Shown one piece after another: positions 10,659 to 22,155 of a stretch of 22,756 nucleotides of DNA. Under the pieces are notes generated by a model. That model saw nothing but the letters and a program-made list of their open reading frames with translations, did no database searches and was not told where the DNA came from. Origin of the DNA: a virus. Where the stretch lies: positions 1 through 22,756 of IMG/VR virus record IMGVR_UViG_3300012006_000036. The stretch is one strand, 5' to 3'. Position 1 is the first letter of the stretch. Each line of letters begins with the position of its first letter. The position numbers and the translations under genes were made by a program.

Positions 10659-12191
10659 ATGGCCCCCCGCAAGACCAAAGTCCCCACTGTCAGCCTTCGT
10701 AAGCCCGTGCTCAAGCCCGCGGCTGATGCGCCTACGCTCAAGCCACAGGCCGCTGTGATGGATAACGGTGGAGGCAGCGGCTTCGGTGGCAGTTACTCTG
10801 GCTGGCAGAGCACGATGTTCTCGAACGCCCGCCGCGCTATCTTTGGCCGTGCACCGGGCGACCTACGCCAAGACCTGACGCCGTGGAACCGCATGGCGAT
10901 GATGCGCAAGTGCCGATGGGCCGAGCGTAACAGTGGACTATTCAAACAGATTCTGGCCGACATGGTGCTCTACGGAGTGGGCGACGGCATCAAACCGCAG
11001 TCCCACGCGTCGACCCCTGAGATGCAGGAGACCTACGAAACCTACTTCGCCGAGAAGGCCAAGCGCATCGACATCACGAACCGTTTCTCATTCTATCAGG
11101 CCCAGGCTATCCTCCTCCGCGGTATGATCCGTGACGGTGACTCCTTCGCCGCCAAGGTCCGCAACGGCGCCGGCGAAGCCAAGATTCAGCTGATGGAAGC
11201 CCACCGCGTTGGCGACCCCCTCGAAGAGACGGTCGTCATCCCTGGCATCCACGACGGTATCATCTTCGGTCCATACGGCGAGTACGTCGCCTGCAACGTT
11301 TACAAGTCGGACGGCGGCAACCGCCAGATTCTGGCTCAGTCCATGATGCACGTCGTCGACCACGAGTACGCATCCGGGGCCCGCGGCGTTCCGCTCCTCC
11401 AGCACTCTATCAACTCCATCCAAGACGAGATGGAAATCCTCGCTCTCGAGAAGCAGGGTGTGAAGGACAACGCTGACGTCACCCGCGTGATTACGAAGCA
11501 GGGCGGCATCCTCGACCAAGACACGGCCAACGAGCTCGGTGCCCTGAACACCTCCTCCTATTCCTCCATCGCCAACACGATGGGCGGCAAACTTTTAGTG
11601 CTCGACCAAGGCGAGGCCCTGACCTCCCACATGAGCAACCGCCCGAACCCAACCTTCACCGGGTTCATCCAGGCGCTCGAACGCGACATCGCTCAGGGCG
11701 TGCTGCCTTACGAGTTCGTCGGCGACTCCTCCAAGCTAGGCGGCGCCACCGTGCGTCTCGTTACCGCCAAGGCCGGCCGCGTTTTCAGCAAGTACCAGAC
11801 CATCGTCATCGAACAATTCTGCGTGCCGACTTGGGGCTACATCATCGGACAGGGCATCGCCGACGGCGAAATCCCTGACGACCCGCAGTGGGCCTCCGTC
11901 TCTTGGACGACCCCGAAGAGCGTGACGGTGGACGCTGGCCGCGAAGCCGCCAACGATCGTGCGGATGTCGAGATGGGCTTGCTGTCGATGTCTGAGCTCT
12001 ACGCCCAGCGTGGCTTAGACTTCCGCACCGAGATGCAGAAGCGGGCATCCGACATGGTCTACATCCAAGACCTATCGAAGACCTACGGCATCCCATTCGA
12101 ACTGCTCTTCCGTCCGTCCAACACCCCTGTGGGTACCGTTGACCAGGTCGACCAATCCGAACCGGCTCCTGACGCCACCCTTTCCGAATAA
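10659..12191 (+). CDS. Portal protein, lambda family
   Basis: This 510-residue protein fits the lambda-type portal family (lambda gpB). These form a dodecameric ring at one capsid vertex through which DNA passes. Supporting segments are LTPWNRMAMMRKCRWAERNS near the N-terminus (lambda portals have a similar R-x-R-x-L-x-RN region), then GVGDGIKPQS, LLRGMIRDGDSF, KIQLMEAHRVGDP, and GVLPYEFVGDSSKLGGAT. The length matches lambda gpB (533). The first 35 residues are Pro/Lys-rich and probably disordered. The C-terminal tail is acidic. It starts three bases after the gpW-like stop and is followed within four bases by the protease gene, the usual lambda order. Confidence 0.9.
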   Translation: MAPRKTKVPTVSLRKPVLKPAADAPTLKPQAAVMDNGGGSGFGGSYSGWQSTMFSNARRAIFGRAPGDLRQDLTPWNRMAMMRKCRWAERNSGLFKQILADMVLYGVGDGIKPQSHASTPEMQETYETYFAEKAKRIDITNRFSFYQAQAILLRGMIRDGDSFAAKVRNGAGEAKIQLMEAHRVGDPLEETVVIPGIHDGIIFGPYGEYVACNVYKSDGGNRQILAQSMMHVVDHEYASGARGVPLLQHSINSIQDEMEILALEKQGVKDNADVTRVITKQGGILDQDTANELGALNTSSYSSIANTMGGKLLVLDQGEALTSHMSNRPNPTFTGFIQALERDIAQGVLPYEFVGDSSKLGGATVRLVTAKAGRVFSKYQTIVIEQFCVPTWGYIIGQGIADGEIPDDPQWASVSWTTPKSVTVDAGREAANDRADVEMGLLSMSELYAQRGLDFRTEMQKRASDMVYIQDLSKTYGIPFELLFRPSNTPVGTVDQVDQSEPAPDATLSE

Positions 12192-12195
12192 CTTT

Positions 12196-13344
12196 ATGCG
12201 CTTCCTTACCAATGGCCTCTCGGGCCGCGAGCCCCTCCTTATCGACCCGACCAAGGCTAAGGACCACGCCGTCCTCGCCGAGAAGTTTGGCTTCACTGAT
12301 TTGCTCTCGCAGCTCTTCGGCACCGCCCCCCAGCCCTATATCGTCGACGGCATCGGCGTCATCCCGATCGTGGGCGTCATCGGCAAGGGCCTCTCCCCGA
12401 TGGAAAAGATGATGGGCGCGGTCGACGTGAACGATATCTCCAACGCGGTCGACGCTTTCGCCTCAGCTCCAGAGGTCACCAGCATCGCCCTGCAAATCTC
12501 CTCCCCGGGTGGCACGGTCACCGGCGTCGAGGAGCTCGCGAACAAGGTCCGCAACCTCAAGAAGCCGACCATGGCCTACACGGATTCCGAGATGGCCTCC
12601 GCCGCCTATTGGATTGGCTCCGCCGCAGATAGGGTAGTGTCAAGCCCCTCTGCGACCATCGGTTCGATTGGCGTCTATCTCGCAATCCCTGACTACTCCA
12701 AGGCGGCAGAGATGGCTGGTATTAAAATGGTCGTCCTAAAGTCCGGCAAGTTCAAGGGTGCAGGCATCGAGGGTACGTCCCTTAACCCTGACCAGATCAG
12801 CAACCTTCAGGCCTCGGTTGACGAAATCCATGCCGAGTTCAAGACCGCCGTGAACATGAAGCGCAAGATGGTGCAGGCCGACTCCATGGAAGGCCAGACC
12901 TTCTCCGGCAAGCAAGCCGCCCAGAACGGACTCGTCGCCGCGCTCTCCGATTCTTTCACCGAAGCCCTGGCTAAGTTCGCTGGCTCAACCTCCGCCGTCC
13001 CGACCGCCGTGCATGCCTTTGCCAAGGGTGGGAAGGCCATAAGCCTCCTCAAGCCCAAGGCCTCCGATATCGAAGAAGAGGTGCTCGCCCTCCTCTCCCC
13101 GCGTCAGCGCGAGATGATTGATGGTTATATGGACGTCGAAGAGACCTTCGGAATGTTCGACCAAGGCTCTGGCCCTGAAGGCGCTCACTACGTCGCCGCC
13201 TCGCCCTTTGGCGCTCAAGGCCTGCTCTGCCAGAACTGCGTTTTCTACCGCGGTCCTCGCGGCTGTGGACTCGTATCCGGCGACATCGACCCGAACGGCA
13301 TCTGCAAGCTGTGGGTCATCCCAGGCTCCCTCGTCAAAGAGTAA
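12196..13344 (+). CDS. S49-family prohead protease with a four-cysteine C-terminal domain
   Basis: The frame is open from 12139, but ATG 12196 starts just after the portal stop and gives MRFLTNGLSG, so I prefer it (382 residues). Residues 50-255 form an SppA/ClpP-like S49 fold: ISSPGG (101-106), catalytic serine S135 in SEMASAAY, and K187 in GKFKGAG, 52 residues later as in SppA-type Ser-Lys dyads. It would cleave scaffold and capsid proteins during head maturation, like lambda gpC. Unlike gpC there is no obvious fused scaffold. Instead residues 340-376 form an added domain with C345, C348, C357 and C370 (C-x2-C-x8-C-x12-C) and a D-P-N-G-I-C-K-L-W end, similar in spacing to HiPIP iron-sulfur or zinc sites. 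Scaffold function probably lies in the next gene. Confidence 0.85.
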   Translation: MRFLTNGLSGREPLLIDPTKAKDHAVLAEKFGFTDLLSQLFGTAPQPYIVDGIGVIPIVGVIGKGLSPMEKMMGAVDVNDISNAVDAFASAPEVTSIALQISSPGGTVTGVEELANKVRNLKKPTMAYTDSEMASAAYWIGSAADRVVSSPSATIGSIGVYLAIPDYSKAAEMAGIKMVVLKSGKFKGAGIEGTSLNPDQISNLQASVDEIHAEFKTAVNMKRKMVQADSMEGQTFSGKQAAQNGLVAALSDSFTEALAKFAGSTSAVPTAVHAFAKGGKAISLLKPKASDIEEEVLALLSPRQREMIDGYMDVEETFGMFDQGSGPEGAHYVAASPFGAQGLLCQNCVFYRGPRGCGLVSGDIDPNGICKLWVIPGSLVKE

Positions 13345-13377: not shown

Positions 13378-13815
13378 ATGACCATCGAAGAACAATTGCT
13401 CGAAGCCTCGGCTGCCCTCTCGGGCCTTACTGCCGAACGCGATGACCTCCGTGCCACCGTCGAGAAACTCACCGTCGGCGCCGCCGCGGAACTCGAAAGC
13501 CTGAAGGTCGAAGCCAGCGTTAAGGACGCGTCCATCGCCAGCCTCACCGAAGTCGTCAAGACCATCGAAGCCGAAGCCGCCGCTCTTAAGGTCGCCGCTC
13601 TCGAAGCCGAAGCCACTAAGGTCAGCGCCTCCAAAGAGGCCGCTAAGATTGCCGCGTCTGTCGGCGTCACCCCGGTTGCCCTTCCCCAGGGCGACGGTGC
13701 TCCCGCCGAGGCCGTCAACCACTACGTCGCTTTCATGGCCCTGCCTGTCGGGTCCAAGGAACGCAACGCCTACTTTGAGGCCCATCGCTCCGCGATCATC
13801 AAGGCCTCTTTCTAA
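13378..13815 (+). CDS. Probable scaffolding protein, coiled coil
   Basis: The protein has 145 residues. Residues 1-100 form a long Ala/Glu/Lys-rich helix with heptad spacing (TIEEQLLEASAALSGLTAER onward), the usual look of phage scaffolds. The C-terminus contains VAFMALPVGSKERNAYFEAH and ends IIKASF, a short ordered tail that may bind the capsid protein. It lies between the protease and the major capsid gene, the usual place for a scaffold or a capsid decoration protein. The short length fits a separate scaffold paired with the S49 protease. I do not recognise a named family. The 12-base sequence AAGCCTCGGCTG occurs at 13343 and again at 13403 inside this gene. Confidence 0.7.
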   Translation: MTIEEQLLEASAALSGLTAERDDLRATVEKLTVGAAAELESLKVEASVKDASIASLTEVVKTIEAEAAALKVAALEAEATKVSASKEAAKIAASVGVTPVALPQGDGAPAEAVNHYVAFMALPVGSKERNAYFEAHRSAIIKASF

Positions 13816-13832: not shown

Positions 13833-13847
13833 CAATACTAACTCATG
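13833..13847 (+). promoter_or_regulatory. Leader CTAACTCATGGC of the major capsid gene, shared with the gene at 19462
   Basis: The capsid start is preceded by AATACTAACTC with no purine-rich Shine-Dalgarno sequence. The same CTAACTCATGGC string recurs at the start of the gene at 19462. Both leaders also follow a TAATTT stop context. This may be a favoured translation start signal for abundant virion proteins, which is inference. Confidence 0.45.
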
Positions 13848-14717
13848 GCTAATTCCATCACCGCCGCCCCGTCCGTACTGGCCGCTGGCGTCCTCTCCGC
13901 TCTCCAGAACAAGCTCCCCGTCCTTTCGGGTATCTCGTCTGTCTTCTCGGCTCGTCCCGGCTCTGCCGGAATGAGCATCACCGTGCCCCTGATCGGCACG
14001 TCCACCGCGTCCACGTTCGGCGCTGGCGGTTACCTCACCGGCGATGACGCGACTGTCACGCAGACTGCTGTCTCGCTCGGTCACTACAAGATCTCCAGCC
14101 GCTTTACCCCTTCGAACCTGAAGGACTACGGCGCTGACTTCTTCGTGGCCAATTTCACGCAGACGGCTAGTATCGGTCTCGCCCAGAAGGTCATGGACCT
14201 CATCAACACTCAGGTCACCAACGCTAACTACAGCGTGTCGACTGTCTCTGGTGCCGCCCTCTCGTACCTCGAACTCGTTGGAGTCCAGAAGACCCTCGAC
14301 GACGCCAAGGCTCCTAGCCCTCGCTACGCCGTTCTTAACAGCACCTACATCTCTGACCTCCGTCAGGATACCACGATCGTTGGCAACAACGTCCTCGGTG
14401 CCTCCATCATCCGTGATGGCGACCTCGGTATCATCGCCGGTGCCCGCATCTATCAGTTCGCTAACCTCGCTACCAACTCCGAAAGCTTGGCCGGCTGGGT
14501 TGCAGGACCAGACGCAATCGCTTTCGCAAGCGCCTTGCCAGACTCCGAAGGCATCCCCGGCTTCGAAGTTGCGAACGCTGTCGACGCTGGCACGGGTCTC
14601 GGTGTGCAGGTTCTCGTCGGAATGGAACAGAGCGGCTATCTCAATGTCACTTGTACCCTACTCGCGGGTTGCGCTGTTGGACGGTCGACCTCGTTGGTGC
14701 GCTTGAAGACCGCGTGA
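13845..14717 (+). CDS. Major capsid protein
   Basis: This 290-residue protein follows the scaffold candidate and ends at an intrinsic terminator, the classic place of the major head protein. Features include an Ala/Val-rich N-terminal region (SVLAAGVLSALQNKLPVLSG), SITVPLIGTSTASTFGAGGY, a helix with NFTQTASIGLAQKVMDLINT (the spine-helix candidate), and beta-rich domains with conserved-looking GVQVLVGMEQSGYLN near the end. Third positions are strongly C-ending, as in highly expressed genes. It is expected to adopt the HK97 fold. The sequence looks nearer to P22-coat-like or other minor capsid families than to lambda gpE. Subfamily is uncertain; role is quite sure by position and composition. 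Confidence 0.82.
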   Translation: MANSITAAPSVLAAGVLSALQNKLPVLSGISSVFSARPGSAGMSITVPLIGTSTASTFGAGGYLTGDDATVTQTAVSLGHYKISSRFTPSNLKDYGADFFVANFTQTASIGLAQKVMDLINTQVTNANYSVSTVSGAALSYLELVGVQKTLDDAKAPSPRYAVLNSTYISDLRQDTTIVGNNVLGASIIRDGDLGIIAGARIYQFANLATNSESLAGWVAGPDAIAFASALPDSEGIPGFEVANAVDAGTGLGVQVLVGMEQSGYLNVTCTLLAGCAVGRSTSLVRLKTA

Positions 14718-14800: not shown

Positions 14801-15178
14801 ATGAGCCTCTACGCTGACTTTCTCGCTGACGCTAAAGAGATGATCGCGGACTTCGGCGTGGCCGGAACCGCCAACTCTGGGGCCATTACCTTCCAGTGCC
14901 TCATCTCTGACCCCGCCGTCATGACCGTCCTCGAAGCAGGGGGGTATTGTGAGCGGACCCAGTACTCGGTCAGGATGCCAGCCGTAACGGCCTCCTGGAC
15001 TCTTCCAGACGGCTCTACGGGGTCATCGGCGGCCCTACTCTCGGCAGGCGTCCCCATCGCCAGCCTAGGCCAGGGCAAGAAAATCGTCGCCGGCGGGAAG
15101 ACCGTCCGCATCACGACCCAGACCTACAAGCCTGCGTCGGCATGGATCACGCTCGTCGTCATCGACGATAACCAGTAA
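14801..15178 (+). CDS. Probable head-tail connector or neck protein, 125 residues
   Basis: The frame opens earlier (14768), but that start lies at the end of the terminator, so the ATG at 14801 is chosen. The protein has an N-terminal helix (LYADFLADAKEMIADFG) and a beta-rich remainder with repeated short strands. It ends VRITTQTYKPASAWITLVV, an end pattern seen in small phage neck proteins. It comes directly after the capsid gene and before the tail genes, which suggests head completion or head-tail joining. No named family is recognised. It is the first gene after the terminator. GATAGG lies immediately before the ATG and is too close for a Shine-Dalgarno site. Confidence 0.65.
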   Translation: MSLYADFLADAKEMIADFGVAGTANSGAITFQCLISDPAVMTVLEAGGYCERTQYSVRMPAVTASWTLPDGSTGSSAALLSAGVPIASLGQGKKIVAGGKTVRITTQTYKPASAWITLVVIDDNQ

Positions 15179-15182
15179 AGCC

Positions 15183-16130
15183 GTGGTGACGGTCAGCATC
15201 CCGAGGAAGTCGCTTGAAGAGTTTAATGCGACCCTTAAGCGCGTTGCTAGTGAGATTGGCATGGATGCACAGAGCGCCGCCACGAAGCAGGCGATGCTTC
15301 TATGCCAAGACTTAGCCATCTTCACTCCGCCAATGGCAGCAGGTGGCGGACAAGGCCTTTCTAACGCGGCCAAGAAAGCAGGCGAAGGAGCCGTGGCCGG
15401 GGACATCCGTAAAATCTTTGTGGCAGTAGGTGACCGAAACATCAACATCCAGAAAGCCATTGTTTTTCAAAGTCTGGCCCATGCGACCCAAACGAACAAC
15501 CGTGCCGGCTTCGACAAGATTATCAAGCGGTCACGCATCGAGACTCTACGCATCTCGCCGATCATGACAAAAATCCTGAACGACCAGAACTATGACCGGG
15601 CTTTCCTAAAGGCCAAGAACTACCTAGCCCGCGTACCTATCGCCTCAAATGAGTACGGCTTCGATTATGCGCGTGACCTTCGAGGTCATCATGATCGTGT
15701 TAAGTCAAAGTTTGGCGGACGAATTAAGCGAGGGCAGAAGATTGGCGTTCCTCGTCTCCTGGTTGAGTCGAAGCAAGAGCTTGATGCCTACATCAAGGAG
15801 CGTCAAGCCGCGGTCGGTAAGACCAAGGCTGGCTGGCTTCGTGCGCTGACGATGCTGAAGCCACCCATGCAGGCCAATGTCGCCAGCGGTAGATTCGGCG
15901 CTAAGCTGCGGGACACAATGTGGGTCGCTCGACACGGCGGCCTAGGCTCGGCTACCCAGACTTACACCGTCAAGGAGGTCTTCATCCAAATCAAGAACCT
16001 CCTAGGCAACGTCAACTACATCGCCGACGCGGCTGACACTATGACCCTTGCGCTAGGCAATCGGGACAAGATGATGCAACAAGACCTGGCTAAGTTTATC
16101 GCCCGCACCAAAAGCAAGAACGGGATGTGA
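15183..16130 (+). CDS. Probable virion connector or tail completion protein, 315 residues
   Basis: Starts with GTG at 15183, four bases after the previous stop. The first 100 residues (IPRKSLEEFNATLKRVASEI, then ATKQAMLLCQDLAIFTPP) look like phage HK97-gp10-type or minor tail proteins, where an N-terminal helix and a T-P-x-x-x-G segment are common. The rest is basic and mostly helical (KIIKRSRIETLRISPIMTKI, VESKQELDAYIKERQAAVGK). At 315 residues it is about twice a typical gp10, so an extra domain is present. Its stop abuts the reverse ligase gene with no space. A structural function is expected by position. A non-structural function cannot be excluded. Confidence 0.6.
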   Translation: MVTVSIPRKSLEEFNATLKRVASEIGMDAQSAATKQAMLLCQDLAIFTPPMAAGGGQGLSNAAKKAGEGAVAGDIRKIFVAVGDRNINIQKAIVFQSLAHATQTNNRAGFDKIIKRSRIETLRISPIMTKILNDQNYDRAFLKAKNYLARVPIASNEYGFDYARDLRGHHDRVKSKFGGRIKRGQKIGVPRLLVESKQELDAYIKERQAAVGKTKAGWLRALTMLKPPMQANVASGRFGAKLRDTMWVARHGGLGSATQTYTVKEVFIQIKNLLGNVNYIADAADTMTLALGNRDKMMQQDLAKFIARTKSKNGM

Positions 16131-17051
16131 TCACTTGTCCCCGCGCACTCGGACAAACACCGGGTGGCGCAAGGAGCCTTGTGGGGTCTTCATCTGGAAG
16201 TCTACCTCGGCGGTCTGGCCGATGAGCTGAGAGCGGTCGGCGAGCAGGGCGGAGCGTGTGGCGTTATCCATGCCAGTGCCGACGCTGACTAGGCGACGCC
16301 CGCAGCGCACGACGATGTGGCCGGCCATCCCAGCGCACTTGCCCGTGCCTTCGACCACGTCCACGATCTCGGCGTCCGTAGTGTCGGCGTCCTTGACCTT
16401 GAGCCAAGCCCTGGAGCGGATGCCGTGGGCGTAGGGGGCGGCGGTATCCTTGACCATGGCACCCTCGAAGCCCTCGGAGGTAAAGCGGACAAAGGCTTCC
16501 TCTGGGGTGCAGGAGACGCTTGGGATGAGCAGGAGGGAGGAAGTGTAGGACCGGGCAAACAAAGCCTCCAGCGAGGCACGGCGGGTGCTGTAATCGCCAT
16601 CCAGCGAGGGCAGGTCAAACAGCCAGACTCGGGCATCGTCGGCAGAGCGGTCAGAGCGGAGGGCACCGACCGAGGTAAAGAACGACTTGCCGGACACGGC
16701 CTCGCCATCGAGAGACCAGACGCCAGCCTTGCCAGCCAGGAGGTCGAGTACCTCGTCGGCCAGATGGTCGAGGGAGGGCATAGGGTTGCCGTTGCGGGTC
16801 TCGAAGCGGACGGTGCGGGTGGAAAGGTCCGCAGTGATCAGGACGCGCAGGCCGTCGACCTTGGGCTCGCAGACGTAGGAAGCGGGTGTCTCGCCAGCAT
16901 ACAGGCGGGCCAGCATAGCGCCGTGGCGGGCCTTAGGGGTGCGGCGCTTAGGATGACGCGGGATCGCATCCTCGAACATGGCGAAGAAGGCGGCTAAGAC
17001 TGGGTCCTGTTGGCAGAGCATTGGTCGAACGACCCGAGTAAGGCACCTCAT
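16131..17051 (-). CDS. ATP-dependent DNA ligase
   Basis: This is the only gene on the - strand (306 residues). It seals nicks by a covalent lysine-AMP intermediate. Motif I is CEPKVDGLR (61-69) with K64. Motif Ia is TRNG (85-88), III is WSLDGEA (112-118), IIIa is WLFDL (143-147), IV is EGAMVKD (196-202) and V is WLKVK (216-220). The C-terminal OB fold (from about 225) ends HPVFVRVRGDK. The set is complete for a minimal ligase without an extra DNA-binding domain. Internal starts at M11 and M25 (ATG ending at 16979) are possible, because the first residues look unlike a ligase. A weak TTGACG on the - strand (17065-17060) lies just upstream. It interrupts the late operon, converges with the upstream gene with no gap, and diverges from the tail terminator gene. 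Confidence 0.93.
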   Translation of the reverse strand: MRCLTRVVRPMLCQQDPVLAAFFAMFEDAIPRHPKRRTPKARHGAMLARLYAGETPASYVCEPKVDGLRVLITADLSTRTVRFETRNGNPMPSLDHLADEVLDLLAGKAGVWSLDGEAVSGKSFFTSVGALRSDRSADDARVWLFDLPSLDGDYSTRRASLEALFARSYTSSLLLIPSVSCTPEEAFVRFTSEGFEGAMVKDTAAPYAHGIRSRAWLKVKDADTTDAEIVDVVEGTGKCAGMAGHIVVRCGRRLVSVGTGMDNATRSALLADRSQLIGQTAEVDFQMKTPQGSLRHPVFVRVRGDK

Positions 17052-17098
17052 ACCCAGTCCGTCAAGCCCCTTTCCCTACCAAAGCGGGCAATGGTACA
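17052..17098. other. Divergent gap between ligase and tail terminator candidate genes
   Basis: This 47-base gap must hold any promoter specific to the reverse ligase. On the - strand TTGACG (17065-17060) is a fair -35 box, but the matching -10 region is poor and lies inside the gene. On the + strand TACAAT at the start codon of the next gene lacks a -35 partner. No firm promoter is seen. Confidence 0.25.
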
Positions 17099-17530
17099 AT
17101 GGGAACGAAGAGCATCCGTCACATCGTCGAATCCACCGTCGCGACCTACCTCTCGACCCAGACCGGGCTGACCACCGTCACGTTCCTGACCGGGGACAGC
17201 GCCGCGACCCAGACCCTGCCCAAGGCCGTGGTCCTCTGCGAGTCTGCCCGGGCTCCTAGCGACCTCCCCGAAGGCGAAGGCAACTTCAGCTGCTCGGTCC
17301 GCATCACGCTGTTTTCAAACGCCGACGACACGACCCTCGCCGATCACCGCCTCCGCTGTGCCGCCCTGTCTGGCAATATGCGTGACCTGACCTCCATCAA
17401 GGCGGCCTTTACGGCCACCGGCGACGCGACCTGCTATGACGTGACCATGCAGTCCGAAGACGAGGGAATCGACGAGCGCTCCTGGGCGACCGCGTTCACG
17501 TTCGACATCCTCACCGTCTTCCCCGCGTAA
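17099..17530 (+). CDS. Probable tail terminator or minor tail protein (gpU-like)
   Basis: The protein has 143 residues, with the start at ATG in GGTACAATGGG, without a Shine-Dalgarno sequence. An N-terminal helix (SIRHIVESTVATYLSTQTGL) is followed by a sheet with SCSVRITLFSNADDT, a helix ADHRLRCAALSGNMRDLTSI, and a final strand ATAFTFDILTVFPA. This alternation and length fit tail terminator proteins such as lambda gpU, which cap the tail tube and join it to the head. The position directly before the tail tube candidate agrees. The match is by architecture, not by a clear motif. Confidence 0.65.
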   Translation: MGTKSIRHIVESTVATYLSTQTGLTTVTFLTGDSAATQTLPKAVVLCESARAPSDLPEGEGNFSCSVRITLFSNADDTTLADHRLRCAALSGNMRDLTSIKAAFTATGDATCYDVTMQSEDEGIDERSWATAFTFDILTVFPA

Positions 17531-17554
17531 GGTTACCAAACCGAGCATATTCAA

Positions 17555-17938
17555 ATGGCCGCCATCTCTAACGGAACTACCTGTATCTACGGAATCGCCA
17601 ACGGTACGTTTGGCAATTTGTTCGTCCAGTCCTACAGCCTCTCGTCCTCGTTCAACGCGGAAGCCACGGTGGTCGATGAGACTGGCCTGACCAAGACGCA
17701 CCGCCTAGACGACCGCAAGAGTGAGCTGACCGTGGAAGGCATTGCCAAGACCTCAGTCGTCCCTATTCTTGGCGCCAGCCTTAGCTTTACGCTTAACACT
17801 GCTTCGGCTTACCCATCGGGCTCGGCTTCGGTTTCGTTCTCGGGCACGATTACCAAAATTGACGACAAGGGCCAGAACAAGGGTTTTACTTCGGTGTCCA
17901 TCACGGCTATCGATTACGAAGGCATCTCTCCTGCCTAA
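17555..17938 (+). CDS. Probable major tail tube protein
   Basis: This 127-residue protein is almost wholly beta-type with Thr/Ser-rich strands (VVDETGLTKTHRLDDRKSEL, TITKIDDKGQ, GFTSVSITAIDYEGIS). Tail tube proteins of siphoviruses and myoviruses have this look: a beta sandwich, a G-x-T-K-T-type loop and a charged D-D-x-K segment. The position before the tail assembly chaperone and tape-measure candidates agrees. It is short for a gpV-like tube protein, nearer to the size of minimal tube proteins. A hairpin follows its stop. Confidence 0.7.
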   Translation: MAAISNGTTCIYGIANGTFGNLFVQSYSLSSSFNAEATVVDETGLTKTHRLDDRKSELTVEGIAKTSVVPILGASLSFTLNTASAYPSGSASVSFSGTITKIDDKGQNKGFTSVSITAIDYEGISPA

Positions 17939-17944
17939 TTGACT

Positions 17945-17961
17945 TAGCCCCAAGTGGGCTA
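17945..17961 (+). other. Hairpin after the tail tube gene, no T-run
   Basis: TAGCCC (17945-17950) and GGGCTA (17956-17961) form a six-pair stem with a CAAGT loop, seven bases after the tail tube stop. No T-run follows, so it is not a standard terminator. It may stabilise the upstream transcript 3' end or act as a weak attenuator between the abundant tube protein and the rare chaperone. Confidence 0.6.
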
Positions 17962-17972
17962 CACTAGGCGGT

Positions 17973-18551
17973 ATGGACAAACGGTTCCTCGCTGCCTTTA
18001 TCGACCCGGCACCCTTTCGGCTGCTGGGTCGTTCCATGTACCCGTGGTGCTTAAAGTACCGGGTACGGCTGATGGCCTTCGACTCCCCGCTAGTGACCGG
18101 CTCTCGCGGCATCACTCCTGCCGACCTTATCTTTGCCTGCCAAGTGTGCGCTGAAGAATCCCTGGGCGACATAGGCTGGCGCGATCAGCTGAGGATGATG
18201 CACCTATCCCGCAACCCTGCCAAGTTCGAGGCCCTGCTCGAAGCCTTCTCGGGCTACATCCTTGTGCAGGATTGGCCCAAGTTCTGGGAGCAAACTAAGA
18301 AGACCAGCGGCGGAAGCAAGGGTGTGCCGTGGCCGTTGTCCATCGTCGCTAACCTTATCACAAACGGCATCGACGAGAAGCGCGCATGGGAGATGCCGGA
18401 GTGCCAAGCCATCTGGCTTAACTCCGCCCTGGCTATCTCTAAGGGTGCGGACGTGGCGATCATGTCTCCCGAGGAAGAAGCCTTCATGGCCGAGGAGGAA
18501 GCCAAGGAAGCGGCGCCGCCTGCTTCCAATCCTGCAATGGTAACCCCTTAA
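17973..18551 (+). CDS. Probable tail assembly chaperone, 192 residues
   Basis: The gene lies between the tail tube and tape-measure candidates, the fixed place of tail assembly chaperones. The start ATG has AGGCGG two bases upstream, one of the few purine-rich leaders here though too close. The protein is mixed helical (FIDPAPFRLLGRSMYPWCLK, PAKFEALLEAFSGYILVQDW) and ends in an acidic Ala/Glu-rich stretch (EEEAFMAEEEAKEAA), probably disordered. I see no slippery heptamer near its end, so the usual programmed frameshift product is not evident. The tape measure follows in the same frame after the stop and one codon. Confidence 0.6.
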   Translation: MDKRFLAAFIDPAPFRLLGRSMYPWCLKYRVRLMAFDSPLVTGSRGITPADLIFACQVCAEESLGDIGWRDQLRMMHLSRNPAKFEALLEAFSGYILVQDWPKFWEQTKKTSGGSKGVPWPLSIVANLITNGIDEKRAWEMPECQAIWLNSALAISKGADVAIMSPEEEAFMAEEEAKEAAPPASNPAMVTP

Positions 18552-18554
18552 GCA

Positions 18555-19436
18555 ATGTCCCAAGACCTGTCAGTAAATATCAAGACGACCTCGGATGTTC
18601 CGCAGGCGATGGATAAGGCCAAGCTGGCCACCGTTAGTTTTGCCAAACAGGTCGACGACGTAAGCAAGAAGTTTAGCACGGCGTTTAAAGATATTGCCCT
18701 ATCCTTCTTAGCTCCGCTTGTCATCCTTAACTCAGCTATTTCGGCCATCTCTTCGGCCATTGCAGAGAACAAACAGAAAATAAAGGACGCTATGGATTTT
18801 GTCGTAAAGGGCGAATCTAAGTATTTGCGTCCAGGCACTGTTTCTTCTGGGCGTGAAGTCGAAAGAAAAAAACAAGACGCATTAGATCGCAAGAACGCCA
18901 AACTTGGAGCGGAAGCATATGCTCAGGAACAGTTGGACGCAGATAAAGGATTTTTGGGAATGTTTGGTGGTGAAGCTGATAAAGCCGTTGTTCAATATAT
19001 GTCCGGTGGTAACGGTTTTATGGACACTCTTGGGCGAACTATTAAGGGTACCGGGATGCTCCTTGGAATTAATGATATAGCGGGAAATGAAGATATGCAA
19101 AAAGTCCTTGAGAGCAGATCTCAAGCGCGCGACGTTAATGACCCACAAGTGCAGGCTCAGGCTAAAGCTACAGGTGACGCAATCGCTCAAAAAACATCCG
19201 ACGATGCGGCCAAGGCCAAAGGCACAACCTTCAAGGGCCCCGAGGGCTTCTCCAACGTCGTCGGCGTAGGCGCTAACCCGGTCATGGAAGCGATGACCAT
19301 GCAGCTCGAAGAGTCTCGCAAGCAGACCGCACTCCTTGAAGCAATCGCCCGCCCTGCTGGTGGCGGCGTCCCGGTCGATTACACTAAGTCGACTTCCTCA
19401 AGTCCTTCCCGCGCCGCTATGCTCTCCGGCAAATAA
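18555..19436 (+). CDS. Short tape-measure-like tail protein
   Basis: The protein has 293 residues, with start ATG 18555 one codon after the chaperone stop. A membrane-like hydrophobic segment at 47-70 (LAPLVILNSAISAIS inside) and long Ala/Lys/Gln-rich helices on both sides fit a tape-measure protein, which sets tail length and is ejected into the host envelope. It is very short. At about 0.15 nm per residue the tail would be about 44 nm. From about 18770 to 19195 the bases are much more AT-rich, with many A/T third positions, then GC content rises sharply, which suggests an exchange inside the gene. A baseplate or fibre-linked protein is the main alternative. Confidence 0.65.
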   Translation: MSQDLSVNIKTTSDVPQAMDKAKLATVSFAKQVDDVSKKFSTAFKDIALSFLAPLVILNSAISAISSAIAENKQKIKDAMDFVVKGESKYLRPGTVSSGREVERKKQDALDRKNAKLGAEAYAQEQLDADKGFLGMFGGEADKAVVQYMSGGNGFMDTLGRTIKGTGMLLGINDIAGNEDMQKVLESRSQARDVNDPQVQAQAKATGDAIAQKTSDDAAKAKGTTFKGPEGFSNVVGVGANPVMEAMTMQLEESRKQTALLEAIARPAGGGVPVDYTKSTSSSPSRAAMLSGK

Positions 19437-19461
19437 TTTAACACCTGATCATAACTAACTC

Positions 19462-20343
19462 ATGGCAATTGTAATTAACGGTAACACTTTAACTACCGCC
19501 CTACTCCAACCAGGCTGGACGGTAACGGCTGACGGCTTCGGCCTGAACACCTCGACGACCGTCTTTAAAATCGACACGACTTTCGAGCTCGACGCTTTTG
19601 TGGTCAAGGGCAACGCCCACCCCGACGCCGCTTACTCGTACCTTAAACTCGACAAGTGGAAAGTCAGCTGGGACACGCTCGACATCGCCACCCTGACGGT
19701 TGACTACGTCGGCATTGATACGGCCTTTAATAGCGGCGTGCGTACTAATCCGAACACATCCTCGGCTAACGGCCTGACGACCGAGAACATTTCAACCCAT
19801 CCAAACTTCTTTGCCCAGGACGCTAACTTTACTACCGGCCCTATCGCTGGTACAAGTTACACTCAGTCCGACCTCGGGCCCTTAGTGGAGATTAAAAATC
19901 CAGCCGACTACATCACTCAAATTATTAACCTCAATACGGTTATCATCTCCAAGAAACAGTCCTACGTCGGCGAAAACGGTGCGTGCTTTGAGAGTTCAGA
20001 AGGTGGCCGCTTCATTGGCTTTGTCGACCCAGCCTATCCTAACTTTTATGGCAAGACCAACTACCTGACCAGGACCACAAGTTACTCAGGGGTTATGTAT
20101 TCAACGGTCCTTGCGGATGTGCAGGCACTGCTTGCACTTCTTAACAGCGCAACGGACACAAACTCTTGGGGCATATTTGAGTTACTTCCCGCTTGGGCAC
20201 CTGTTGGAGTCGGCAGCGGTGGCGGCAACGTAAACCTTCTCTCGCAAGTCAACGTTGAGGAGTTTGGATCACTGTATAAAATCATGTACGAGATTCGCTA
20301 TTCAAAAGTAGGTTGGCACGCCTCGGTCTATACCAACATCTAA
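19462..20343 (+). CDS. Probable tail tip or distal tail protein, 293 residues
   Basis: It follows the tape measure, where distal tail, hub or tail-tip proteins are coded. It is beta-rich with many Thr, Asn, Ser and Tyr, for example WTVTADGFGLNTSTTVF and SYLKLDKWKVSWDT, and ends EFGSLYKIMYEIRYSKVGWH, giving a compact beta-sandwich look. The leader CTAACTCATGGC matches that of the major capsid gene, which suggests high expression. That would suit a structural protein in many copies. I do not recognise a family. It has no signal peptide or cell-wall-degrading motif. Confidence 0.65.
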   Translation: MAIVINGNTLTTALLQPGWTVTADGFGLNTSTTVFKIDTTFELDAFVVKGNAHPDAAYSYLKLDKWKVSWDTLDIATLTVDYVGIDTAFNSGVRTNPNTSSANGLTTENISTHPNFFAQDANFTTGPIAGTSYTQSDLGPLVEIKNPADYITQIINLNTVIISKKQSYVGENGACFESSEGGRFIGFVDPAYPNFYGKTNYLTRTTSYSGVMYSTVLADVQALLALLNSATDTNSWGIFELLPAWAPVGVGSGGGNVNLLSQVNVEEFGSLYKIMYEIRYSKVGWHASVYTNI

Positions 20344-20346
20344 GCC

Positions 20347-22155
20347 ATGAGCATCCAACCCGGTAACGGTTATACCTTCGCGTCCTCTGGCCAGGGCACG
20401 TCGCTTAACATCGATAAGCCTTGGACTCCGCCCATCGGCGACGCGCTAGTCTTTGCTCCGCAAGTTGCTATTCCTGCAAGCACTTATTTACCTGAGCAAC
20501 TGGTCTATGGCCAAGGACAGGGCGCACGCCCGTCTCCCTTTGAATGTCAGATTGTAAGCATCAACGGCGAGCGTTTCCTCCAGATTGCGGTCGGGGCCAT
20601 CAACTATACGTCGAGCCTGATGCCGGAGATTTACTACGGTAACGACACCCGCATCATGCAGGCGTACGCTAACAAGGTGCAAATCTGCCCAAGTGGTATG
20701 CGAACAAATGGCGACTTGTACCCGATTTACCCAGACGGCGACCCTACCTATTCTTTGACTTGGTGGATGGAAGACGGCGGAGGCTATAAGTTATCTGACA
20801 GTAATAGTCCTTTGACTTTGTACGCTTTTAAATGGGACGTTGCCGTGGGCGTTTCACCGTTTAGCGAGAGCTCCGTGGTCAACACTGGCCTCCCTACGCT
20901 GGCCCTGATTGCCGACTCTAACAGCACGGACCAAAACAAGATTGCCGTTGACCCAAGCCCATCGACCTACGTTCAAACTATGAACGTACAAAAGATGACC
21001 GGCTATGATGCCGCGTCGACAGGACTGGACGAAGATTGGGGCCACGGTCACACCTCCTGGCTAAACCCCCGTAAGTTGGGTTATAGTTACAAGGCTATCG
21101 CCGCGATCACCGCTGAGTCTAACTCCTTTTCTATGGTCGGAAGCATCGAGCGCGTTGCCATCCCGCTCATTCAAAACCAAGTTCAGCACATCAGTCTTGT
21201 CGGCAAAGCTTCGGGTGGTGCTGCTTACATCAGTTGCGGCACCCATACCTCAGTCATACCATTCCCGGTCACGACCTTTTGGAGTGGGTCAGTACCTGTA
21301 TACTCCGACGAGCTGACACTTGCCGCGTGCCTAAACTCTATCCCTGACATCACGATTACGGTTGATTCAGTTCCATTGGTCATCCCGATTGCGGGTAATG
21401 TTGAAGTCAGCAAAACAAGTGCAGGGTCGTATTACGTTACATTCTGCAACAATTTATCTGGCATCAATCTGCCTCAGCTTACCTTTAACACGAGTAGCGT
21501 TACGCACTACGCTTATGACTTTAAGATTACTCAATACCATACCGGTAGCATTGACCTAATTACGCCAACGCAGACGGGTATGGTTCAGCTGCGCAACGTC
21601 ATAGGAGAGGCCGAAACCGACGATCCGTATAACGTCAACGAGACGGCCGAGTGGGACCAGATTGCAAACAAGGCGCAATGCGTAGCCTGTACGGACTTCT
21701 CGGGCGACGTCATAACAGGCGGCATGTCTAACATGACTGGGGCCACCGCTATCCCTGTTAATTACGATGGAGGGGAAATCACCTCCGAGCCAAGTACACC
21801 ACCCTTCACGGTCTATCCAGGCTCCGAGGATGGCAAGTGGAAGGTTCAACCCGGCACGCTCAACGACTACGTGCCCGACAATATGGAGTCAGAGATTACG
21901 GCCTCAAGCGGCATGATTTACCTGAAGATATCCAACACCTCTGGAGCATACCCGGGCGACACGCTTACCATCGAGACGGCGGCTTCCACCCCCGTAGATA
22001 CCGACGATTACGGCTATATCACGCTGGCCGAGATTGTGGCCGGAGTGGATGAAGCACCGCCAACGGTTAATCAGTTCGTCACTGGATCACTCTGGTCACA
22101 GCGCCATAAGTTCACTTCGCCTAACACGGCATCGTACTTCTTCTACCGCGTTTAA
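20347..22155 (+). CDS. Probable tail fibre or tail-tip protein, 602 residues
   Basis: It starts three bases after the previous stop. The protein is rich in Gly, Ser, Thr, Tyr and Asn and looks built from many beta strands (GNGYTFASSGQGTSL, SFSMVGSIERVAIPL, TVYPGSEDGKWKVQPG), typical of host-recognition or tail-tip proteins. Few charged helices occur. I see no carbohydrate-active motif, collagen-like repeat or chaperone tail. The order (tape measure, unknown, this gene, then another Gly/Tyr-rich gene) suits baseplate or fibre proteins. Function is inferred from position and composition. Confidence 0.65.
   Translation: MSIQPGNGYTFASSGQGTSLNIDKPWTPPIGDALVFAPQVAIPASTYLPEQLVYGQGQGARPSPFECQIVSINGERFLQIAVGAINYTSSLMPEIYYGNDTRIMQAYANKVQICPSGMRTNGDLYPIYPDGDPTYSLTWWMEDGGGYKLSDSNSPLTLYAFKWDVAVGVSPFSESSVVNTGLPTLALIADSNSTDQNKIAVDPSPSTYVQTMNVQKMTGYDAASTGLDEDWGHGHTSWLNPRKLGYSYKAIAAITAESNSFSMVGSIERVAIPLIQNQVQHISLVGKASGGAAYISCGTHTSVIPFPVTTFWSGSVPVYSDELTLAACLNSIPDITITVDSVPLVIPIAGNVEVSKTSAGSYYVTFCNNLSGINLPQLTFNTSSVTHYAYDFKITQYHTGSIDLITPTQTGMVQLRNVIGEAETDDPYNVNETAEWDQIANKAQCVACTDFSGDVITGGMSNMTGATAIPVNYDGGEITSEPSTPPFTVYPGSEDGKWKVQPGTLNDYVPDNMESEITASSGMIYLKISNTSGAYPGDTLTIETAASTPVDTDDYGYITLAEIVAGVDEAPPTVNQFVTGSLWSQRHKFTSPNTASYFFYRV

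Follow-up and report, generated by a model that had tools for sequence, protein, structure and literature searches.

A viral contig of the IMG/VR collection (record IMGVR_UViG_3300012006_000036, of which positions 1 to 22,756 were analysed and are here called the window) encodes a prohead protease that ends in a cluster of four cysteines resembling that of high-potential iron-sulfur proteins (HiPIPs). HiPIPs carry electrons in the periplasm, chiefly in purple bacteria, and are exported by the Tat pathway as separate proteins; PioC is the smallest HiPIP known. The locus thus raises the question whether a head maturation protease carries a HiPIP-type domain and, if so, what the domain does for the phage.

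The protease ORF lies on the plus strand at 12196..13341 (stop codon 13342-13344), starts 5 nt past the stop codon of a lambda-family portal protein gene (10659..12191, plus strand; PF05136, E 1.6e-35) and encodes 382 amino acids. Its identity as an S49 prohead protease, first read from the translation alone, is confirmed by Pfam (PF01343, E 5e-28), by PHROG (phrog_53, head maturation protease, E 1.4e-56) and by alignment with 23 relatives. It contains an S49 domain with the Ser and Lys motifs, and its gene is situated between those of the portal and the capsid protein. Ser135 (in S-A-A-Y-W at residue 135) and Lys187 are invariant across the relatives and, by analogy with SppA, are likely to form the catalytic pair. 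Downstream on the same strand follow a 145-amino acid probable coiled-coil protein (13378..13815) and the major capsid protein (13845..14717; phrog_283 major head protein, E 5.8e-12). The coiled-coil protein, recognised by its position and sequence and by the conservation of this next gene in relatives, gave no clear family match in Pfam and PHROG searches and is likely the scaffold. Beyond the capsid gene, at 14822-22155, lie seven predicted genes that gave no match to PHROG at E 0.01 and presumably encode neck and tail proteins. An ATP-dependent DNA ligase gene (phrog_114, E 1.3e-63) is found on the minus strand at 16131-17051, opposite to the surrounding head and tail genes.

Three parts can be distinguished in the protein. 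The protease part comprises residues 1-261 (12196..12978), and the proteases of sister phages end exactly here. A poorly conserved linker of residues 262-297 (12979..13086; mean pairwise identity ~0.40 over residues 261-297) leads to the HiPIP-like module of residues 298-382 (13087..13341), which, as judged from a domain-only AlphaFold2 model and its PDB fold matches, consists of an N-terminal helix and the four-cysteine core. The core, residues 329-376 (13180..13323), is the 48-residue segment with the highest conservation in the protein; its mean pairwise identity is 0.88, versus 0.66 for the best segment of that length within residues 1-270. It includes the nearly invariant Tyr332 (13189..13191), aligned with a tyrosine of the Rhodothermus marinus HiPIP (QYTDHSP vs HYVAASP), and the four predicted cluster ligands Cys345 (13228..13230), Cys348 (13237..13239), Cys357 (13264..13266) and Cys370 (13303..13305), all of them invariant. 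These are the only cysteines of the ORF and fall within its last 38 residues. The preliminary description was correct in reading them as C-x2-C-x8-C-x12-C, with D-P-N-G-I before and K-L-W after Cys370. Its extent for the domain, 13213-13341, does cover the four-cysteine region and is too small for the domain, which begins at about residue 298 (13087).

All four cysteines are retained in each of 71 distinct related phage domains, which rules out a chance occurrence. Their 2-8-12 spacing recurs in 66 of the 71; the five exceptions differ in the length of the second gap, one being a parsing artefact from an extra cysteine. This second gap had been taken to be shorter than in HiPIPs. It is no departure, given that the cysteines of PioC stand at positions 22/25/34/47 (PMC7462912), a spacing identical to that of the phage domain and within the general HiPIP form C-x2-C-xn-C-x(12-14)-C.

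The proposed resemblance to HiPIPs is borne out at every level of comparison: single sequence, sequence profile, profile against profile and fold. When the domain is searched as a single segment, the top two matches in the PDB are the R. marinus HiPIP (3h31, E 0.0025) and PioC (E 0.041). With a profile built from 23 diverse domains of phages, the four best matches were HiPIPs, namely 3h31 (E 1.9e-7), PioC (4.5e-4), 1isu (2.4e-3) and 1hpi (4.2e-3). As a yardstick, 3h31 as query gives an E value of 8.8e-7 for 1isu and no better than 0.51 for PioC; by this measure, the phage domains are about as near to HiPIPs as HiPIPs are to one another. Alignment of the phage domain profile with five HiPIPs by hhalign gave a probability of 97.7 and an E value of 1.5e-12. 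Moreover, the NCBIfam model for Iro, a HiPIP, matches residues 321-373 (E 0.0013) and the version of the domain in a related contig (L047) at 5.7e-6. The curated cut-off of the Pfam HIPIP family (PF01355, 22 bits) is reached neither by this domain (13.4 bits) nor by its best-scoring relative, L073 (17.2 bits with hmmscan, 20.7 in a second profile search). For this reason we call the domain HiPIP-like, a divergent branch, and do not place it in the Pfam family.

Among known HiPIPs, the R. marinus protein is the best match both in sequence and in fold. It shares Y-x3-S-P-[YF], C-x-N-C and I-x-P-N-G-x-C-x-x-W-V with the phage domain, but has a longer second gap (x14) and is free-standing. PioC of Rhodopseudomonas palustris TIE-1 (PDB 6xyv, 7a4l) has the N-G-x-C-x-L-[WY] end in common with it, but is an electron carrier of 54 residues that serves photoferrotrophy and reads E-N-G-W-C where the phage protease domain has a conserved P-N-G-I-C. 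In contrast to the exported electron carriers, the phage domain forms the C-terminus of a protease, and no signal sequence can be read ahead of it.

A full-length model of the protease was poor over the C-terminal region (pLDDT ~30), and a domain-only AlphaFold2 model built from an alignment of 42 phage domains was used instead (pLDDT 96.0, pTM 0.83). In a Foldseek search of the PDB, its first five matches were all HiPIPs, 3h31 leading with probability 1.00 and a modest E value of 0.015. By VIA-align, all 13 of the PDB matches listed were HiPIPs, again with 3h31 as the best (Z 7.2 over 57 residues, 3.5 A). A Z of about 7 is weak to middling by itself and becomes convincing here through the sequence comparisons, which lead independently to the same family. 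The model thus predicts the three-dimensional fold of a HiPIP and not a fold that would scatter the four cysteines, which had been named as a possible counter-finding. We are highly confident that the C-terminal 85 residues have the HiPIP fold, in a PioC-like minimal form.

AlphaFold2 does not identify metals, and the cofactor has to be deduced from the family. On this basis it is very probable that Cys345, Cys348, Cys357 and Cys370 bind a [4Fe-4S] cluster rather than zinc. A zinc-binding or metal-free structural domain that merely resembles HiPIPs would be compatible with the fact that four-cysteine sites can bind zinc, with the blindness of the model to metals and with the missed Pfam cut-off. 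Zinc ribbons, however, have two CxxC knuckles, whereas the phage domain has one CxxC followed by single cysteines at +9 and +13, the second pair being C-x12-C, which is the HiPIP spacing found in PioC. Furthermore, PDB profile, profile-profile and fold searches all return HiPIPs first, and no zinc ribbon appears among the PDB sequence or fold matches. Cysteine spacing and matches together rule out a zinc ribbon, and we consider a zinc-binding or metal-free domain of any kind quite improbable.

A scan with conserved patterns detected the domain in 337 viral contigs. A sample of 83 distinct ORFs, which was seeded from the domain of this phage and whose proportions differ from the natural ones, comprises 37 S49 proteases with a C-terminal HiPIP-like domain, 34 ORFs with an S78 protease and a remainder without protease, some of these cut by contig ends. 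Hence two head proteases of unrelated folds are fused to the same domain. In the S78 ORFs it is mostly N-terminal to the protease and often preceded by a third module, phrog_2859. This module of ~110 amino acids, fused ahead of the HiPIP-like domain in many S78 proteases, also occupies the HiPIP position in some sister phages (e.g. L168:3792-4160 and similar in L154-L216); it matches annotated capsid proteins of Roseobacter phages CRP-821/822/831 and the prohead protease of Pontimonas phage phiPsal1.

When viral proteins were searched by structure, the domain emerged in phage proteins named HAD-like, ParB/Sulfiredoxin and zeta toxin as well, and as a lone 67-residue HiPIP in cyanophage S-SRM01. 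An SppA protease of an uncultured phage (UniProt A0A6J5R8L9), likewise of 382 amino acids, carries a domain 78% identical to the one described here, although its name omits the HiPIP part. When four versions of the domain were searched by tblastn against ~50,700 phage records, the Actinomycetia phage DSL-LC01 was the sole match at E < 0.1; this search is incomplete in that it missed the S-SRM01 type. The real HiPIP 3h31, used as tblastn query, also matched DSL-LC01 only (E 0.7). The capsid maturation protease of DSL-LC01 (OQ999401, WJZ48514) is the sole isolate record obtained by tblastn and has the domain at its C-terminus too, but is of S78 type (by a weak Pfam match) and 26% identical in the matched region. 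By this capsid protease gene, DSL-LC01 encodes a second, different cysteine-rich protein (WJZ48512, L075:1188-1922) that is annotated as "high potential iron-sulfur protein"; it has the motifs CGNC ... GYC ... CAASRTCDAW and no Pfam match even at E 10. Stand-alone HiPIP-like proteins of ~130-147 amino acids, not beside recognisable head genes, occur in jumbo phages, namely in a 216-kb phage contig (L066) and in a further contig (L067).

The sole match in a bacterial genome is a 6.6-kb contig (L146, JAHEGZ010000057.1) in an Aurantimicrobium MAG. Its genes encode a terminase, a portal protein, an S49-HiPIP protease, a scaffold-like protein and a further likely capsid protein, and it probably derives from a phage and was binned together with an actinobacterium, which gives a weak hint to the host. 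The domain is absent from 394 other genomes of the class to which Aurantimicrobium belongs. With phage head genes throughout the only bacterial contig found and these 394 genomes lacking the domain, we rejected a host origin.

Does the protease need the domain? In sister phages whose protease is 82% identical, the protein stops at residue 261 and the whole domain is missing; either the scaffold gene follows 23 nt after the protease or a phrog_2859-type gene lies between. Two of the domain-less relatives (L163, L218) have a capsid protein 82-84% identical to that of this phage, and the scaffold of close domain-less relatives is 69-78% identical. A relocation of the domain was not observed either: 13 contigs (13-33 kb) of the domain-less sisters contain no copy elsewhere, a result that is not absolute as the contigs are fragments. 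Given sisters this similar, the domain is probably not required by this protease or by capsids of this type, and we regard it as accessory to the protease rather than needed by it, with good confidence. In a tree, the domain-less proteases fall among the domain-bearing ones (3 changes), several joins having long branches. Relatives without the cysteines had been named as a finding that would speak against a metal site. Such relatives exist, but always with the entire domain gone and never with cysteines lost from a retained domain, so that they do not refute the metal-site reading.

Where it is present, the domain is kept under strong constraint. It is 83-89% identical between phages whose proteases share 45-56%, while the capsid protein is 25-57% and the scaffold 39-66% identical. 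In the comparison with L037 and L043, identity amounts to 45-49% for the protease part, 25-34% for the capsid protein and 83-85% for the domain; for L037 the values are just 25% for the capsid protein and 84% for the domain. At fourfold-degenerate sites, domain and protease have diverged about equally, the silent sites being saturated. The identity of the domain therefore reflects purifying selection and not a recent shared copy, and recent horizontal transfer was discarded as its cause. The conserved partner of the domain is probably not the capsid protein.

These observations bear on what the domain does. It might act in assembly, as a rigid, cluster-stabilised knob that binds to the scaffold, the portal or the capsid protein and so helps to bring the protease into the procapsid or to keep it there. 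Most of the distinct domain-bearing ORFs have a head protease, of two unrelated folds, and the position of the domain between protease and scaffold matches the C-terminal extension of other S49 head proteases (AchV4, AH2). Against such a role, relatives with an 82-84% identical capsid protein and a 69-78% identical scaffold lack the domain, and its sequence stays at 83-89% while capsid and scaffold drift, unlike that of co-evolving partners. We consider an assembly role unlikely, if still worth weighing; the same relatives weaken the earlier suggestion of a permanent structural knob in the capsid. Alternatively, the cluster could sense oxidation and switch the protease on or off, as a gate that responds to redox state or oxygen and times maturation. 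In favour of this, the domain is physically attached to a protease, and at positive potentials HiPIPs alternate between the [4Fe-4S]2+ and 3+ states (PMC7462912). However, proteases 82% identical exist without the domain, and its presence at the opposite end of a protease of unrelated fold, with variable linkers, leaves no common allosteric route. Such a redox gate is conceivable, but no observation made here points to it; it is the least supported among the functional readings and in our judgement very unlikely.

A domain that the head can probably do without, that sits on two unrelated proteases at either end and that is conserved beyond any capsid part has the look of a passenger. According to this explanation, the HiPIP-fold domain would hold a [4Fe-4S] cluster on Cys345/348/357/370, which would stabilise its fold or carry electrons, and the maturation protease would take the attached domain into the procapsid. 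The domain would end in the virion and be active inside it or in the host infected next, by way of a conserved partner or by its own redox chemistry, outside the evolving capsid. The occurrence of the domain in HAD-like, ParB/Sulfiredoxin and zeta toxin-named phage proteins supports a passenger. Packaged proteins with several domains are a wider theme among phages, and some of the domain types just named, as zeta toxin fused to MuF and as DdrB-ParB, are known from polyvalent proteins packaged in virions, HiPIPs not being mentioned there (PMC5512222); we infer a packaging of the HiPIP-like domain in the virion. As a whole, an accessory [4Fe-4S] HiPIP-fold module carried into the procapsid by the protease has, in our estimation, not quite an even chance of being correct, and the passenger role taken by itself is put forward more tentatively still. 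In a stronger form of the passenger explanation, the domain would be released in the capsid, injected with the DNA and serve as electron carrier or Fe-S donor in the host. Its conservation independent of capsid partners, its presence in proteins with other effector-type domain names and the existence of stand-alone copies are in favour of such a delivered effector, which we nevertheless regard as a rather unlikely form. The capsid route is not general, since the copies in L066 and L067 stand alone, away from recognisable head genes.

No publication dealing with phage HiPIPs, or with HiPIPs of head proteases, turned up in the literature searched. Already known are automatic HiPIP-profile names on some phage proteins, such as A0A6J5M9J5 and A0A879R316 in UniProt (from uncultured phages and from Synechococcus phage S-SRM01, whose copy is the lone protein mentioned above), which have the same fold, and the [4Fe-4S] domain of lambda gpL. 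The latter is also a phage morphogenesis protein with a C-terminal four-cysteine domain, but belongs to the tail tip, not to the head, and its Cys173/182/205/212 spacing is unlike that of HiPIPs (PMC10721106).

Across hundreds of contigs of environmental phages, our analysis identifies capsid proteases with two unrelated folds whose best-conserved part is a minimal HiPIP form. Hereby a probable iron-sulfur domain is placed at capsid maturation, where we found none described in the literature searched. Tailed phages might, though we think it improbable, load a HiPIP-type iron-sulfur protein into their capsids as a mobile passenger module of general use, fused to unrelated maturation proteases, and deliver it for redox or Fe-S chemistry in the host through a partner that hosts have in common. 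Because closely related phages differ in whether they have the domain, comparing them offers a direct test of what it does.
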